DNA of 11,033 nucleotides, taken from contig JAFUFG010000067.1 in assembly GCA_017470045.1 (NCBI GenBank), forward strand, positions 1 to 11,033, written 5' to 3'. A program made the translations under genes and the position numbers. This stretch comes from Bacilli bacterium (GTDB lineage: Bacteria > Bacillota_I > Bacilli_A > RF39 > UBA660). How positions within the stretch are numbered: the first letter of the stretch is position 1; the number at the start of each line of letters is the position of its first letter. Shown here one piece after another: positions 1,977-11,033 of this stretch. The notes below the pieces were generated by a model, which did no database searches, was not told where the DNA came from, and saw nothing but the letters and a program-made list of their open reading frames with translations.

Positions 1977-2006
1977 ATGTCTCTTTCAAAGAGACATCTT
2001 TTTTTT
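1977..2006 (+). terminator. Intrinsic terminator of the CDF-rdgB-AAA+ unit
   Basis: A perfect 9-bp stem, ATGTCTCTT (1977-1985) with AAGAGACAT (1989-1997), has a TCA loop and is followed by C and eight T residues (1999-2006). It begins 3 nt after the AAA+ stop codon and separates that unit from the large RNA gene downstream. Confidence 0.93.
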
Positions 2007-2027
2007 ATTTCTGTAATATACTTATAT
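1991..2027 (+). promoter_or_regulatory. Possible promoter of the large structured RNA
   Basis: Some promoter must lie between the terminator and the RNA start. One candidate is GAGACA (1991-1996, matching the GACA end of TTGACA), a 17-bp spacer and TAATAT (2014-2019), predicting a start near 2026. A second candidate is TTATAT (2022-2027) without a good -35, predicting a start near 2034. Neither is strong, and the first overlaps the preceding terminator stem. Confidence 0.3.
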
Positions 2028-2038
2028 CGTGTTAAGCA

Positions 2039-2633
2039 ATTAACGGTCTTTGACAAATGAATTAAGAACCATGTGAAAAACTGCTTACAAAGTAGCATGG
2101 AAGTCCTGTCTTACTGAGTAGTAGGGAGTGCGAATTTCTTACGGTTTCAGTGAAATCTATTCGTAAGTTTAGGTTTGGGAGTTACGAGAGTAGCGAATGA
2201 GAGGATTGTTGTTCTATAGGTGAGAGTAAAGGTAGGGATACTATCGATGTCAATCTCTGAAAAAAGAAGGAGTTCAATCCTTCTTGGAGTAGGACAGAAT
2301 CATTACTATCTGTGGTGGATAGAGATGTAAGTCTGTAAAACCATAAGGCATAAAGGAGCTTGCAGTTGAGGCTATGTGAGTAGCTATAAGATGGAACCCC
2401 TGTACCCCGGCGTAAATCTGCAATATGAAGATCAGTAAGAATAATGATTTTTTGATCTAGTGTATGTTGGAGTTGCGAGTATTAATCTCGTGTGGTCTAG
2501 GAGCTTAGGCTTAGGTAAAAGTGGAAAAGGAGTCGCTATCCTTCAGGGCTTTTACTTACCAGTGACTGAATATACTTGTATCTATAGGGCCAATGTGAGG
2601 AGCATCTTAATTTATTTGTTAAGGACCGTTAAT
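2039..2633 (+). ncRNA. Large ornate structured RNA (~595 nt), possibly ROOL class
   Basis: This stretch has no plausible protein gene and is far richer in G and structure than the neighbouring intergenic DNA. Positions 2039-2067 pair with 2605-2633 in an uninterrupted 29-bp terminal helix. Its only non-Watson-Crick positions are three G.U pairs, which work on the + strand RNA but would be A-C mismatches on the minus strand. Internal helices include AAGAAGGA 2264-2271 with TCCTTCTT 2278-2285, TTGCAG 2360-2365 with CTGCAA 2418-2423, AGATCA 2429-2434 with TGATCT 2453-2458, and GTAAAAG 2515-2521 with CTTTTAC 2549-2555. An unpaired-looking C-rich segment occurs near 2396-2410. Length, closed ends and likely host fit the ROOL family of Bacillota/Tenericutes RNAs. 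OLE or an undescribed class remain possible, and I cannot align it to a consensus from memory. No U-tailed terminator follows its 3' end. Confidence 0.8.
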
Positions 2634-2635
2634 CC

Positions 2636-2664
2636 TTGACATTATTACAATTTAATGATAATAT
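2636..2664 (+). promoter_or_regulatory. Near-consensus sigma-A promoter for the HTH-like gene
   Basis: TTGACA (2636-2641), an exact 17-bp spacer and TAATAT (2659-2664) give a strong housekeeping promoter with a start near 2671. The -35 begins 3 nt after the terminal helix of the large RNA. The resulting leader is about 97 nt, long compared with the 15-35 nt leaders of most genes here. Confidence 0.8.
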
Positions 2665-2767: not shown

Positions 2768-3139
2768 ATGAATCAATTAAGCCAATATTTAAATCAAATG
2801 AAAACTTCAAGTTTTCAACAACTACTTTTTTCGTTTATCGATAAAAGTGGTAAGTCCGATTCGGACATTTACAACTATGTAGGTATCGATAGAAGATTAT
2901 TTTCTAAGGTAAGATGTAATGAAAATTATATTTTATCGAAAGAAAATATCTTGAGACTATGTGTATCTTTAAGACTTGATCTTGAGGATACATCAAAGTT
3001 ATTAGGAAGTGCTGGGTATAGCCTATGTACCAATAATGATTTTGATTTAGTCATTCGATATTGCATTGATCACAATATCTATGATATTGATGAAATCAAT
3101 GGCTACTTGTTTGACTTGACGAAAACTGTCTTGTGTTAA
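2768..3139 (+). CDS. Small XRE-like helix-turn-helix protein
   Basis: A 123-aa soluble protein. Residues about 14-115 match a domain I recognise from many Bacillota proteins, both alone and at the C-terminus of larger ones: SFQQLL, FIDKSGKSDSDIYNYVGIDRRLFSKVR (the helix-turn-helix-like part, about 23-49), LSKENILRLCVSLRLDLEDTSKLLGSAGY, then FDLVIRYCIDHNIYDIDEINGYLF. The phage-repressor-like fold suggests DNA binding or protein interaction; no target is visible. TGGAGG at 2755-2760, 7 nt upstream, sets the ATG. The gene has its own promoter directly after the large RNA and the two share a single downstream terminator, so a functional link is possible but unproven. The frame runs into the terminator, whose first arm encodes part of the last residues. 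Confidence 0.75.
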   Translation: MNQLSQYLNQMKTSSFQQLLFSFIDKSGKSDSDIYNYVGIDRRLFSKVRCNENYILSKENILRLCVSLRLDLEDTSKLLGSAGYSLCTNNDFDLVIRYCIDHNIYDIDEINGYLFDLTKTVLC

Positions 3140-3194: not shown

Positions 3195-3230
3195 AAAATT
3201 AGAATGGGAAAAAGAAAGGTTGTAGTTCCA

Positions 3231-3362
3231 TTTAAGCGCCAGGCCTTTAATTAGGTGACGAGGTTGGTAGGTAATCGAAAGATTCGGCGGGTACTACTGC
3301 GGATAAGTGGTTCGTTAGATATATCGGAAAAAGTAAAATCAACATTACAACAAATGATATAT
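3231..3362 (+). ncRNA. glmS self-cleaving ribozyme/riboswitch
   Basis: This leader has the conserved glmS ribozyme landmarks: AAGCGCCAG at 3234-3242 (cleavage expected between A3235 and G3236), GGTGACGAGG at 3254-3263 and AATCGAAAGATTCGGCGGG at 3273-3291. A 3' P4-like stem is formed by two copies of the self-complementary GATATATC, near 3319 and 3356. Family knowledge: glucosamine-6-phosphate binds and acts as the cofactor for self-cleavage, and the product with a 5'-hydroxyl is degraded, lowering GlmS when amino sugar is plentiful. It lies directly before a glmS gene, as expected. The 3' boundary is approximate. Confidence 0.95.
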
Positions 3363-3390
3363 CCTCACTAATATATTTTCATAGTGGAGG
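3363..3390 (+). promoter_or_regulatory. Hairpin that can mask the glmS ribosome binding site
   Basis: CCTCACTA (3363-3370) can pair with TAGTGGAGG (3382-3390), leaving one bulged G, so the GGAGG ribosome binding site (3386-3390) is the 3' arm of a stem with an 11-nt AU-rich loop. It sits immediately after the ribozyme and 7 nt before the glmS ATG. This is a visible pairing; any regulatory effect is inference. Confidence 0.5.
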
Positions 3391-3397
3391 AAAACAA

Positions 3398-5176
3398 ATG
3401 TGTGGAATAGTTGGATATGTTGGAGAACAACATCCAAAAGAAATTTTATTAGACGGTTTAAAAAAATTAGAGTATAGAGGGTATGATTCTAGTGGAATTG
3501 CTCTTTTAGGAGAAAAAGGTGTTCAAATATTAAAAAGTGTAGGGCGTATTAGCAAGTTGGAACATCAGTTAAATCATGCTGATTTATGTGATTCTCATAT
3601 TGGTATTGCTGATACAAGATGGGCAACTCATGGAGAACCAACGGTTGCGAACGCTCATCCTCATCGAGTTGGAAGAGTTACTTTAGTTCATAATGGAATT
3701 ATTGAGAATGCGGGTAGCTTAAAGAAAATGTTAAAAGCAGAGGGTGTTATCTTTCAAAGTGATACGGATACAGAAGTTGCTTGTGCTTTAATCAATAAAT
3801 ATTTTGATGGAACAAATCCAGTAGAAGCGATTAATAAAGCAATGGAAAAACTACGTGGTAGTTATGCTTTTGGAATTCTATTTGATGAAATTGATAAATT
3901 ATATGCAGTAAGAAAAGATTCTCCATTAATCTTTGGAGTAGGAAATAAGAATTATTACATTGCATCCGATATTAGTGCCATTATTAAATATACGGATGAA
4001 TATATTTTATTAGATGATTATGAAGTAGTAGAAGTATCTGATGATGGTTATTCTATTACTAGAAATGGTAGAGAAGTTCCTAAGAAAATTGAAGTAGCAA
4101 CGATTCGCGAAGATGATGCTTCTAAGGGTGAATACGAACATTTCATGTTAAAAGAAATCATGGAAGAACCTACTGTATTAGAGAAAACTTTAAACAATTA
4201 TATTAACGATATGAATAAGATGATTGATGTTAGTAAGTATGAAGATATTCATATTGTTGCTTGTGGATCTGCATTATATGCCGGTATGATTGGAAAAACA
4301 TTATTAGAAGAAAAAGCAAATATTAAATGTTTTGTGGAATGCGCATCTGAGTATCGTTACGAAAAAGTGATTTATGACAGAAAGACATTAGTTATTTTAG
4401 TATCTCAATCTGGAGAAACTGCCGATACGATTGCTGCTATGCGTAAAGCAAAAGAGGCTCATATTGATACATTAGGTATTGTTAATGTAAAAACTAGTAC
4501 AATTGCTAGAGAATGTGATAATTGTTTATTTATTGAAGCTGGTCCTGAAATTGCAGTTGCTACGACAAAAGCTTATTTATTACAAGTTGCGATGTTTTCT
4601 TTAATTGCTTTAAAAGCAGCACAAAGAAGAGGATTAGAACCAGATTATGATAAAGTGATTGAAGAGGCAAAAGAACTTCCTAAGAAGTTAGAAAAAGTAT
4701 TAAAAGATTCAGAATACTTTCGAGCAGTAGCAGAAGATATTTATTCTTCTAAAGATGCTTTCTTTATTGGTAGAGGAATTGACTATGCAATGTGTCTAGA
4801 AGGAAGTTTAAAACTAAAAGAAGTATCTTATATTCATAGTGATGCTTTTCAAGCTGGAGAATTAAAACATGGAACGATTTCTTTAATCGATGATGGAGTT
4901 CCTGTATTTGCGATTATTACAGATGATAAGATTAAGGATAAAACAGAATCTAATGTTATTGAAGTAGAGGCTAGAAAAGCAAAAGTATTTACGATTACGA
5001 ATGATGAGTCTATTACGGATCATCACTTCCGTTATGTTGTAGAAAAACTTAGTTATTATTTCCAACCAATTCTTGTAGTGCCACCATTACAATTAGTTGG
5101 ATATTATGTAGCAAATTTAAGGGGATTAGATATTGATAAACCTCGTAATTTAGCAAAATCTGTTACAGTAGAATAG
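3398..5176 (+). CDS. glmS: Glutamine--fructose-6-phosphate aminotransferase (isomerizing)
   Basis: Makes glucosamine-6-phosphate from fructose-6-phosphate and glutamine, the first committed step to UDP-GlcNAc for peptidoglycan; cytosolic. The protein has 592 aa, against about 600-609 for the family. It starts MCGIVGYVG with the processed N-terminal nucleophile C2. The class II glutaminase domain (about 1-220) holds EYRGYDSSGIAL, RWATHG and HNGIIEN. Two SIS sugar-isomerase domains follow: the first with CGSALYAG from C289 and SQSGETADT, the second with GRGIDYAMCLEGSLKLKEVSYIHSDAFQAGELKHG (about 457-492) carrying the catalytic Lys, Glu and His. The conserved C-terminus reads PRNLAKSVTVE. All key residues appear intact. 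Expression is controlled by the ribozyme in its leader. It is monocistronic: the terminator overlaps the stop codon. Confidence 0.98.
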   Translation: MCGIVGYVGEQHPKEILLDGLKKLEYRGYDSSGIALLGEKGVQILKSVGRISKLEHQLNHADLCDSHIGIADTRWATHGEPTVANAHPHRVGRVTLVHNGIIENAGSLKKMLKAEGVIFQSDTDTEVACALINKYFDGTNPVEAINKAMEKLRGSYAFGILFDEIDKLYAVRKDSPLIFGVGNKNYYIASDISAIIKYTDEYILLDDYEVVEVSDDGYSITRNGREVPKKIEVATIREDDASKGEYEHFMLKEIMEEPTVLEKTLNNYINDMNKMIDVSKYEDIHIVACGSALYAGMIGKTLLEEKANIKCFVECASEYRYEKVIYDRKTLVILVSQSGETADTIAAMRKAKEAHIDTLGIVNVKTSTIARECDNCLFIEAGPEIAVATTKAYLLQVAMFSLIALKAAQRRGLEPDYDKVIEEAKELPKKLEKVLKDSEYFRAVAEDIYSSKDAFFIGRGIDYAMCLEGSLKLKEVSYIHSDAFQAGELKHGTISLIDDGVPVFAIITDDKIKDKTESNVIEVEARKAKVFTITNDESITDHHFRYVVEKLSYYFQPILVVPPLQLVGYYVANLRGLDIDKPRNLAKSVTVE

Positions 5177-7378: not shown

Positions 7379-10300
7379 ATGAGAAAATTCCAATGGAATC
7401 GTCTTTGTACAATTCTTGTTTTAATCATGTTTGTTACTGTTACCTATGCGTCTTTTAATACGGAATTATTTGTTAATGGAAATGCTTATTTGAGAGTGAA
7501 TAAAGATATTCGAATTACTAATATTCGTTTATTTGAAACAGAATATAATGGGTATGAAAATACAAATTCAGAATATACTGCAGATTCTGTATCTATGGAT
7601 GTTTCACTACCTAGACAAGCATCTTCTGTTACTTATCAGGTTACTGTTTCTAATGTATCGGATAAACGTTATAAAATAACGGATATTTTAGAAAGTTCTT
7701 ATAACAATAAAGATGTTAAATACGAGTTAGTAGATGCCTCTATTGGAAACATTGTAGAACCTCACACAGAAAAGACTTTTACGATTAAATTTACGAATAA
7801 TGTAACCATTGTAGAAGAAGAAGATGTATACGAAACAGAAGAATATACTTTTGACTATACTGGAGGAGAACAAGTATTCACAGTTCCATACGATGGAGAG
7901 TATACTCTAGAAGTATGGGGAGCACAAGGTGGTAAAACTAGTAATTACCGTGGTGGATATGGCGGATATTCAAGGGGGATAATTTCTCTAAAGAAAAATA
8001 AAAAGATATATATTAATATTGGTGGAGCTGGAAAAACTGCTATTTTAGAAGCTCAAAGTGGTGGATACAATGGTGGCGGTGCAGGAAATGGAGGAGAATG
8101 CAATAATACTTATCGTTATGCAGCGCCAGGTGGCGGTGCTACCCACATTGCATATACTACAGGAACACTAAATAAATTAGCAAGTTTTAAAGGTACTTTG
8201 GTAAATAATAGTTATTATAATTCGAATCAAATCTTAATTGTTGCTGGTGGCGGAGGCGGAGCCCAAGAAATGTCGAAGGCATATGGAGATGGTGCTAGTG
8301 CCGGAGGTTATATAGGAAATAAATCATTCTGGACTAATAATGGACATAATTATTTTGTGAGAGCAGGCGGAGGAACACAAACATCAGGTGGCACTGTAGG
8401 TTATTCTTATATGGTACAAGAAGCAAGTGGAAATCGAATCGGTTCTTTTGGACAAGGTGGATATCATACTGGAGGAAATTGTGGTAACTGGTCCGGAGGA
8501 GGTGGAGGCTTCTATGGTGGTGGATCAGGAGAATTTGCTCCTGGTGGAGGAGGTTCTGGATATATTGGAACTTCTAATTTAACAAATAAAGAAATGTATT
8601 GTTATCAATGTTCAGAGTCAGAGGACGAATCAACAAAAACAGTCTCTACTAATAATCATTCTACAACTCCAACTAGTAACTATGCAAAAGAGGGAAATGG
8701 TTATGCAAAGATTACTTTAAAACGTAAGATACAAGATAATAGTGAATTTGATTTTGATTATACTGGTACCGAACAAACTTTATCTGCACCATATACTGGA
8801 ATTTATAGACTTGAAGCATGGGGTTCTGAAGGTGCTTTATCAAAGTGGGGAGGAACTGCTGGTAGAGGTGGTTATGCAACCGGTTTAATAAATCTTACAA
8901 AAAATGAGCAACTACATATTTATGTAGGCGGAAAAACGCCTTTTAATGGAGGTGGTGGTACAGAAGCTGATGGTGAAAATGGTGGTGCCAAAGGTGGAGG
9001 TGCTACTCACATAGCTACTGTTACTGGTGAATTAAAAACTTTATCCAATAAATTAAATGATATTCTTATTGTTGCTGGTGGCGGAGGAGCTGCTGAACGA
9101 CTTGTAGGAGGCTCTGGCGGAGGCTTTGAAGGTAATAATGGTACATCTAGTACTACTTATCCAGGTTATGGTTCTGGTGGAACACAAACCGCTGGTGGAC
9201 AAGGAATGACAAATAATGATAAAAATCCGAGTAGAAATATAAATGGTTCTTTTGGACAAGCGGGAATTGGTACAGCTACTGATTCTGGTCCTGGTGGCGG
9301 AGGCGGTTTCTATGGCGGAGGAGCTGTTACTTATGCAGGTGCTGGAGGTGGAGGTTCTGGTTATATTGGTAATTCTAGACTTTATGACAAAGTAATGTAT
9401 TGCTATAACTGTAAACAATCAGACGATGCTAATACTAAAACAGTATCCACGAAAGCATATTCTTCCACTCCAAAAGTTTACCAAGCAAAAACAGGACAAG
9501 GATTTTCTAGAATCACATTAGTAAAAAGAACAATTAATCAAACATCATTGACTCTTGATTTTACTTTTGAAGAATATTCGAATGGAAATGAATACGTGTT
9601 TGGATTTACTGGTGAAGAACAGACTTTTAATGTTCCTAGAACTGGATATTATAAAGTAGAGTTGTGGGGAGCAGAAGGAGGAGCTGGTAGATTAGATTGG
9701 AGTACAATTAGAGCTGGTGGACTTGGTGGATATACAAGTGGAACGATCAAATTGAATAAAGGCGAAAAATTATATGTTTATGTTGGTGGTCATCCAGAAA
9801 TAAGTGGAACTATTGATAAATACACCGGTGGAACAGGTGGTTACAATGGTGGTGGAAATGGTGGAAATGATGGTAACAAGGATGCAGACTCTGAACCTGG
9901 TGGAGCTGGAGGAGGAGCAACAGATATTCGTTTATTAAATGGTAGTTGGGATGACTTTGATTCTTTAAAATCACGTATCATGGTAGCTGGAGCTGGTGGT
10001 GGAGGAACTTACTTCAATTTAGGAGGTGTTGGTGGAACACTTACTGGTTCTACTTATCAATTTGGTATTGGACAAAATGGTGTTGATTTTAACTCTGGTA
10101 CCGGAGGTGGAGGTTCTGGATATTATGGAGGTTCTACTAATGATACAACTTCTGGAGGTTTAGGTTCTGGTGGTACTTCTTATATTTCCGGTCATGAAGG
10201 TTGTGATAGCATTTCTGATTCTTCTACAGAGGATAATATTTCTCATACTGGAAGTAGTAATCATTATTCTCATTATATTTTTACCAATACTACTATGATT

Positions 10301-11033
10301 GATGGTGCTGGTTACTCTTGGACCGATACTCGTGGTACTGAAGTTGTTGGAATGCCAACACATGATGGAAGTACAACTATGACTGGAAATAGCGATGATG
10401 GTTTTGCTAAAATCACGTTTATTGAGGAAGTGCCTGAATATACTTTTGAGTATACAGGTGATGTTCAAGCATTTACTGCTCCATATAAAGGAACCTATAA
10501 AATTGAATTATGGGGAGCACAAGGTGGAAATGTTGGCTCACTTATAGGTGCTTTAGGTGGTTATACCTCTGGCACTATTCAATTAGATAGAAATAAAAAA
10601 CTTTATCTTTATGTTGGAGAACATCCTGCGGCTATAGAAGACCGATATTCCTTTAATGGTGGTGGACGTGGAACTGTTGCTACTGCCAACAATACTACGA
10701 AAGCTGGAGGCGGAGGAGGAGCAACGGATATTCGTCTAGAAAAAGATGATTGGAATAGTTTCTCTTCTCTAAAAAGTAGGATTATGATTGCTTCTGGTGG
10801 TTCTGGATTTACTAGATGGGATTCTCGTTCTATTCCTGGAGGAGAAGCTGGAGGTTTAATTGGATATAATGGTTACTCTTCGAAAACAAGCGAAGCAACA
10901 AATTATTTAGCGAATGCAACTGGTGCCACTCAAATCTCGGCTGGTTTAGGTTCTGCTCAAGATGAACCTACTTCAGAAGAACCATTTGTAGGTAAATTTG
11001 GTATGGGAGGTTATCATCAATACTTCACAAAAG
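7379..11033 (+). CDS. Giant secreted protein with tandem ALK/LTK-like glycine-rich domains, 3' end outside window
   Basis: An open frame of at least 1218 codons, without a stop to the right edge. Residues 1-24 form a signal peptide or anchor (basic MRKFQWNR, hydrophobic core, T-Y-A before S25). Residues about 25-155 are a beta-rich domain starting SFNTELFVNGNAYLRV, vaguely like TasA-type surface proteins. At least four glycine-rich domains follow, starting near F158, F459, F743 and F1023. Each opens with F-x-Y/F-T-G-x-x-Q, then (V/A)P-x-x-G-x-Y-x-(L/V/I)-E-x-W-G. Next comes a (I/L)Y-(I/V/L)-(N/Y)-(I/V)-G strand, and the three complete domains close with a (Y/F)-(A/S)-(K/R)-I-T strand. Glycine clusters lie between. 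This layout matches the glycine-rich domain family (Gly_rich) of the ALK and LTK receptors. A role in the cell surface or adhesion is inferred. The ribosome binding site AGGGG (7368-7372) fixes the start. Confidence 0.88.
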   Translation, partial: MRKFQWNRLCTILVLIMFVTVTYASFNTELFVNGNAYLRVNKDIRITNIRLFETEYNGYENTNSEYTADSVSMDVSLPRQASSVTYQVTVSNVSDKRYKITDILESSYNNKDVKYELVDASIGNIVEPHTEKTFTIKFTNNVTIVEEEDVYETEEYTFDYTGGEQVFTVPYDGEYTLEVWGAQGGKTSNYRGGYGGYSRGIISLKKNKKIYINIGGAGKTAILEAQSGGYNGGGAGNGGECNNTYRYAAPGGGATHIAYTTGTLNKLASFKGTLVNNSYYNSNQILIVAGGGGGAQEMSKAYGDGASAGGYIGNKSFWTNNGHNYFVRAGGGTQTSGGTVGYSYMVQEASGNRIGSFGQGGYHTGGNCGNWSGGGGGFYGGGSGEFAPGGGGSGYIGTSNLTNKEMYCYQCSESEDESTKTVSTNNHSTTPTSNYAKEGNGYAKITLKRKIQDNSEFDFDYTGTEQTLSAPYTGIYRLEAWGSEGALSKWGGTAGRGGYATGLINLTKNEQLHIYVGGKTPFNGGGGTEADGENGGAKGGGATHIATVTGELKTLSNKLNDILIVAGGGGAAERLVGGSGGGFEGNNGTSSTTYPGYGSGGTQTAGGQGMTNNDKNPSRNINGSFGQAGIGTATDSGPGGGGGFYGGGAVTYAGAGGGGSGYIGNSRLYDKVMYCYNCKQSDDANTKTVSTKAYSSTPKVYQAKTGQGFSRITLVKRTINQTSLTLDFTFEEYSNGNEYVFGFTGEEQTFNVPRTGYYKVELWGAEGGAGRLDWSTIRAGGLGGYTSGTIKLNKGEKLYVYVGGHPEISGTIDKYTGGTGGYNGGGNGGNDGNKDADSEPGGAGGGATDIRLLNGSWDDFDSLKSRIMVAGAGGGGTYFNLGGVGGTLTGSTYQFGIGQNGVDFNSGTGGGGSGYYGGSTNDTTSGGLGSGGTSYISGHEGCDSISDSSTEDNISHTGSSNHYSHYIFTNTTMIDGAGYSWTDTRGTEVVGMPTHDGSTTMTGNSDDGFAKITFIEEVPEYTFEYTGDVQAFTAPYKGTYKIELWGAQGGNVGSLIGALGGYTSGTIQLDRNKKLYLYVGEHPAAIEDRYSFNGGGRGTVATANNTTKAGGGGGATDIRLEKDDWNSFSSLKSRIMIASGGSGFTRWDSRSIPGGEAGGLIGYNGYSSKTSEATNYLANATGATQISAGLGSAQDEPTSEEPFVGKFGMGGYHQYFTK
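7850..11033 (+). repeat. Four tandem glycine-rich domain repeats within the giant gene
   Basis: Units: 7850-8725 (residues 158-449), 8753-9529 (459-717), 9605-10420 (743-1014) and 10445 to the edge (1023 onward, cut). Order inside a unit: the opening strands; GGY.(S/T).G.I.L; the Y(I/V)..GG strand; (P/K)GGGATH(I) in units 1-2 or GGGATDIR in units 3-4; I(L/M)(I/V)A(G/S)GG; then GSFGQ..., GGGGGFYGGG and GGGGSGYIG in units 1-2. Units 1 and 2 are closest to each other and share a CYxC motif; units 3 and 4 share ATDIRL and form a second subtype. Repeats are diverged, so they are old duplications rather than recent copies. Confidence 0.85.

Follow-up and report, generated by a model that had tools for sequence, protein, structure and literature searches.

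A ROOL RNA gene between AAA ATPase and helix-turn-helix-like genes in a Bacilli lineage

The analyzed stretch of DNA (hereafter the window; 11,033 nt of contig JAFUFG010000067.1 from a Bacilli bacterium) contains at positions 2039–2633 of the forward strand a gene that almost certainly encodes a ROOL RNA (RF03087). The class is already known; what is added here is a chromosomal slot shared by five loci without a tRNA nearby. As an overall explanation, we consider it likely that this is a chromosomal ROOL gene that forms a stable homo-oligomeric RNA cage and is inherited with the chromosome.

Family assignment and conserved fold

In an Rfam search of positions 1970–2770 with relaxed filters, RF03087 was matched end to end (model positions 1–574 of 574, window positions 2045–2624) at 137.4 bits (E = 2.9e-30), the gathering score of the family being 99.1 bits. 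The gene boundaries combine this match with a longer closing helix, and the assignment also draws on covariation. Three other Rfam matches in the same region had E-values from 0.41 to 7.2, and no covariance-model match to OLE, GOLLD, or introns (group II introns included) was obtained there up to E = 10. With default settings and the whole window as query, Rfam overlooked ROOL and gave a single match, the glmS ribozyme at 3224–3372. The ROOL model could be mapped onto the window for 152 of its 159 pairs, with standard pairs at 138 of the 152. The original prediction, made from the letters of the DNA, had described a large noncoding RNA with nested hairpins. Its guess of ROOL is now backed by the full-length match, covarying helices in homologues, and conserved contacts outside the nested model, whereas the new RNA class that it had offered as an alternative is contradicted by the end-to-end match. 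The covariance search that it had suggested placed ROOL above the cut-off and left OLE and GOLLD without a match, and the group II intron that it had named among the opposing outcomes is absent from the matches up to E = 10. Another RNA family or an intron was accordingly rejected as a candidate, given the full-length match of 137.4 bits.

The two ends of the RNA form the closing helix P1 (5' arm 2039–2067, 3' arm 2605–2633), which comprises 29 consecutive base pairs (26 Watson–Crick, 3 G·U) and no mismatch. In 60 dinucleotide-preserving shuffles of positions 1975–2767, uninterrupted helices grew no longer than 17 bp, with the longest per shuffle averaging 12.9 bp; the predicted 29-bp helix is present and far beyond chance. 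The minimum free energy of positions 2030–2645 is −197 kcal/mol versus −151.65 (SD 7.44) for 20 shuffles, none of which was as low (z = −6.1). The longest uninterrupted P1 run is 32 bp in L014, 27 and 26 bp in the two copies of L026, 19 bp in L029, and 12 bp in L025. Runs of 26–32 bp are long for the family as sampled, since five ROOLs from elsewhere reach 10 to 21 bp. The G·U pairs had been taken as a direct sign of selection on the RNA; all three are real, but the argument is weak by itself, and we conclude that selection acts on the RNA because its helices covary in relatives. A conserved protein within the RNA is not apparent, since the longest start-to-stop frame is 58 aa in the window and 58 (on the other strand), 57, 52, and 28 aa in the four relatives.

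Homologue collection, as proposed earlier, gave four related loci with which covariation was examined. The alignment holds six copies, five of which are independent (two from L026 are identical over 583 nt); 86.3% of its cells are paired, and in 51 of the 152 pairs both partners have changed. No value as high arose in 500 shuffles, and the slid controls, which keep the relatedness of the sequences while the shuffles do not, gave 7–15. Model helices 12, 13, and 18 fit the clade poorly, pairing in 14, 43, and 0% of cells, respectively.

Two contacts outside the nested model keep their complementarity while their letters change. The first joins UGGU in a loop (2313–2316) to ACCA in a junction (2340–2343); it is complementary in all clade copies, as UGGU/ACCA or, in L014, UGGC/GCCA, and its counterpart in the phage ROOL L206 is UAGC/GCUA. 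We infer that it is bridge B4 (J6/8 with L8), a conserved intermolecular contact in the solved ROOL cages (PMC12286853). This contact was read by hand because the alignment was misaligned around J6/8; the ROOLs of L211 and L085 were read by eye, and that of plasmid pMP118 was excluded from the hand reading. The second contact is a pseudoknot between UUGCAG (2360–2365) and CUGCAA (2418–2423), which is invariant across the six clade copies, whereas the Rfam consensus has UUGCCU/AGGCAA and L206 letters that are also different yet complementary. Between the two pseudoknot halves lies a hairpin (2371–2384; helix 15, 100% paired in the alignment) with the GNRA loop GUGA (2376–2379), a loop type found in all seven ROOLs tabulated by hand. 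The variable stretch at 2424–2461, which the Rfam model leaves unpaired as a long loop and which is poorly conserved in the alignment, probably corresponds to the disordered linker directed towards the cage interior in solved ROOLs (PMC12286853). The model hairpin at 2527–2543 has the loop UCGCU, which reads UCGC(U/C) in all of the six clade copies except that of L029 (UUGCU), and is probably the self-complementary contact loop L18. The ROOL fold and its contacts are conserved as RNA.

The window RNA shares with RF03087 the full-length covariance match, the helices, the non-nested contacts, the GNRA loop, and the variable linker, and differs in its low family score, longer closing helix, and chromosomal slot without tRNAs. 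Typical ROOLs score far higher (346.7, 330.1, and 296.8 bits versus 137.4). GOLLD and OLE are likewise large ornate bacterial RNAs, described as RNA-only homo-oligomers (PMC12286853), to which the window region has no match up to E = 10.

Genomic context and the shared slot

The AAA ATPase gene upstream of ROOL ends at 1974, and on the downstream side lies a 123-aa ORF (2768–3139, forward strand). Also upstream are genes for a cation efflux protein and a Ham1 family protein, and the 123-aa protein gene is followed by the glmS ribozyme, glmS, and an EamA transporter gene. The ribozyme (58.6 bits), upstream of glmS at 3398, is ordinary. A glycine-rich protein of great length is encoded at 7379–11033 and continues beyond the window; Pfam recognizes ALK_LTK_GRD domains in it (E = 1.8e-90 for the first 874 aa). 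Pfam assigned no phage structural family to any of the nine window proteins tested, and no mobile-element gene was seen in the window; in the relatives, phage genes were judged from synteny. By ARAGORN, tRNAs are absent from the window and from L014, L025, L026, L029, and L006. Location in a prophage, phage, or tRNA array, which is common but not obligatory for the family, was therefore not observed for the window ROOL.

Relatives were collected from species genomes by searching with the C-terminal portion of the AAA ATPase (best 80 of 188 loci). By blastn, the RNA matches four of the 80 loci: L014 (146.4 bits with the ROOL model), L025 (125.2), L026 (two copies, 147.2 each), and L029 (106.7), all above the cut-off. 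Each of the four is labelled as a Bacilli or Firmicutes bacterium, and the Bacillota host of the original prediction is plausible. The order AAA ATPase gene, ROOL, HTH-like gene is the same in all five ROOL loci, with RNA identities of 68–82% between them, and glmS comes next in four (the window, L025, L026, and L029). In L014 (4734–10467), the place of glmS behind the HTH-like gene is taken by four similar consecutive ORFs, judged histidine-kinase-like by eye. The L026 copies lie in tandem (7474–8060 and 8154–8738) and have different flanks; the pair is a recent duplication or, the genome being a MAG, possibly an assembly effect.

Twenty-seven gaps downstream of the AAA gene were inspected by ORF content and blastn, and the other 53 of the 80 loci by blastn alone. 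The known ROOLs account for four of these gaps. Among the remaining 23 gaps, an ORF of at least 60 aa is present in 21, and two are short and lack one. Further AAA slots concealing a ROOL were rejected on these grounds for the inspected gaps. The slot of L006, to which the Rfam search of slots was applied, contains no ROOL by that search; there, a 217-aa ORF (7534–8187) occupies the place that holds ROOL in the sister loci. A loose genome-wide first look with Rfam at ten genomes found ROOL in three, and the ROOL of L025 (7488–8062, 125.2 bits) escaped it.

The 123-aa protein adjoins ROOL in all five loci and, judged from its predicted structure, is probably an XRE-type helix-turn-helix protein. 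It has no match in Pfam, NCBIfam, or PADLOC, and among PHROGs it matches phrog_4031, a family of unknown function (E = 1.1e-5). The model (mean pLDDT 88.6) resembles in shape the XRE regulators C.BclI, DdrO, and SinR, the best Foldseek E-value being 0.28, and two homologues have HTH_26 below its cut-off. Seven of the 12 genomes searched encode the protein. The four ROOL genomes have one copy apiece, the L006 genome has two (second hit E = 1.1e-4), and the L007 and L003 genomes have a single copy each, around which no ROOL was found. The family numbers 195 proteins, 120 of which were listed. Seven plasmid records and two phage records also hold relatives; some members are annotated as HTH or macro-domain proteins, and none was found in viral contigs. 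A special partnership between ROOL and the HTH-like protein was considered and appears weak, the family being wide and also found without ROOL. At L213 (16–2086), a relative of the protein stands beside an ORF that looks, by eye, like a von Willebrand A-type protein.

Several presumed expression signals surround the RNA, all of them consensus readings. A terminator-like hairpin of the AAA gene (1977–1997, forward strand) has counterparts in the other four loci by eye. It is followed by a −10-like box, TATACT (2017–2022, forward strand), the presumed ROOL promoter, which has no clear −35 element; the corresponding box of the other four loci reads TATAAT or TATAAC (by eye). Directly after the RNA, a scan found the sigma-70-like arrangement TTGACA-17-TAATAT (2636–2664, forward strand), the presumed promoter of the HTH-like gene. 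By eye, a TTGAC(A/T) box, a spacer of 17, and a TATAAT-like box follow P1 in all five loci. This was the one match of the scan in the window, below the shuffled mean of 2.7 and hence not above chance by count.

Comparison with other ROOLs, origin, and alternative readings

The ROOL of the Ligilactobacillus salivarius megaplasmid pMP118 likewise belongs to RF03087 (130.4 bits) and has a Cro/C1-type HTH gene 3' of it on the same strand. It differs in its megaplasmid location, in an RNA 39% identical to that of the window, and in an HTH protein without sequence similarity to the window protein. An HTH-type gene 3' of ROOL on the same strand is thus observed both in the clade (window 2768–3139) and in pMP118 (L212, 27914–28186); in phage Javan246 and a Paraclostridium plasmid, ROOL is followed by genes with other annotations. 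The nearest ROOL outside the clade (L211, 56–60% identical, 178.9 bits) comes from a viral contig; unlike that of the window, it is part of a six-tRNA array with phage-like genes around it. Locus L085, a ROOL by Rfam from a viral contig, has eleven tRNAs, and the ROOL of L206 lies behind a phage lysin gene. Neither the window ROOL searched by blastn against phages and plasmids nor the ROOLs of L211 and L085 searched against phages gave a match. Among the pattern searches of viral contigs, one led to a single locus (L085), another to none, and a further one to four loci, of which L211 is a ROOL and L208–L210 are not; yet another gave at least 120 matches, taken as mostly chance.

In the AAA protein tree, whose 47 rows comprise the window and 46 of the 80 loci (none from L048 onwards), the five ROOL loci form one clade (95/82) with L006 as its sister (95/84), whereas L026 sits on a long branch of unsure placement. 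In the RNA tree, built without pMP118, the clade plus L211 is supported at 99.8/100 and the clade without L211 at 97.1 SH-aLRT and 56 bootstrap, and branching inside the clade lacks support. Given these values, chromosomal inheritance is argued from synteny together with the AAA tree. In L006, ROOL was lost or not yet gained, as the HTH-like gene is present and another ORF takes the slot; a single gain before the five loci split and an earlier gain with loss in L006 both fit. Probably a single acquisition, plausibly from a phage ROOL like that of L211, brought ROOL into the lineage, where it has since been passed on with the chromosome.

Three other readings of the stretch were weighed. That it belongs to a different family or to a new class merely resembling ROOL could be argued from its detection solely under laxer filters and from the 38–48% identity of the clade RNAs with the ROOLs of L206, L207, L085, and pMP118; the full-length 137.4-bit match without OLE, GOLLD, or introns up to E = 10 in 1970–2770, the bridge that L211 forms between the clade and typical ROOLs, and the retained non-nested contacts make this reading wholly improbable. 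That the stretch serves the HTH-like gene as a long leader or attenuator, rather than being a free RNA, would agree with the common strand and 134-nt spacing of the two genes, with the failure to find an intrinsic terminator after ROOL, and with retention of the pair in all five ROOL loci. We nevertheless hold a leader to be very unlikely, given the promoter-like site directly 3' of the RNA in five of five loci, the HTH-like gene without ROOL in L006, and the separate transcript reported for the downstream HTH gene in L. salivarius (PMC5643018).

A more serious contender is that ROOL, perhaps together with the HTH-like gene, is a passenger from a phage or mobile element, structured but jobless for the host. 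ROOLs are mostly phage-linked (PMC12286853), as the phage or tRNA-array settings of L206, L085, and L211 illustrate; the HTH-like protein matches the phage family phrog_4031 and has two phage-record relatives; and the sister locus L006 has the HTH-like gene with another ORF replacing ROOL. Set against this are the window without any mobile-element gene seen in it and the persistence of one slot with compensatory changes over five diverged loci, which implies long selection on the RNA fold, so that a passenger seems rather unlikely to us. It is quite possible, if short of probable, that a Bacilli lineage has instead domesticated a phage-type ROOL, acquired in one event between the AAA ATPase and HTH-like genes and usually ahead of glmS, with the cage contacts kept since and a tandem duplicate in one species.

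Proposed mechanism and biological meaning

As a cage-forming chromosomal gene, ROOL would be transcribed from its own promoter behind the terminator of the AAA gene, and the unusually long closing helix would shield the RNA ends. By analogy with the solved ROOLs, which are RNA-only octamers or hexamers (PMC12286853; PMC12191101; PMC12515178), the RNA may self-assemble into a protein-free homo-oligomeric cage, and we regard cage formation by the window ROOL as probable. It would probably be abundant and long-lived, as in L. salivarius, where ROOL is a very stable RNA that in stationary phase attains the level of 16S rRNA (PMC5643018). With low confidence, the cage could hold or sequester RNA or protein cargo in late growth; that cargo holding is its cellular job seems unlikely at present, and deletion of the L. 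salivarius ROOL did not clearly identify a role (PMC5643018).

The literature search found no paper linking ROOL with RF39. Nor did it find a paper title on such a ROOL slot, in a body of literature without the original ROOL description, which reportedly dates from 2017. The novelty is modest, because non-prophage regions are already in print among ROOL locations (PMC12191101). The family may be undercounted, given that the 137.4-bit window ROOL and the 125.2-bit ROOL of L025 escaped searches. ROOL cages, whose structures are solved, are mostly discussed as phage-linked. Retention of this ROOL in a single chromosomal slot, with structural selection visible, makes it a case in which the RNA should be of importance to the cell, and if the domestication reading is true, ROOL cages would serve the bacterial cell and not phages alone.
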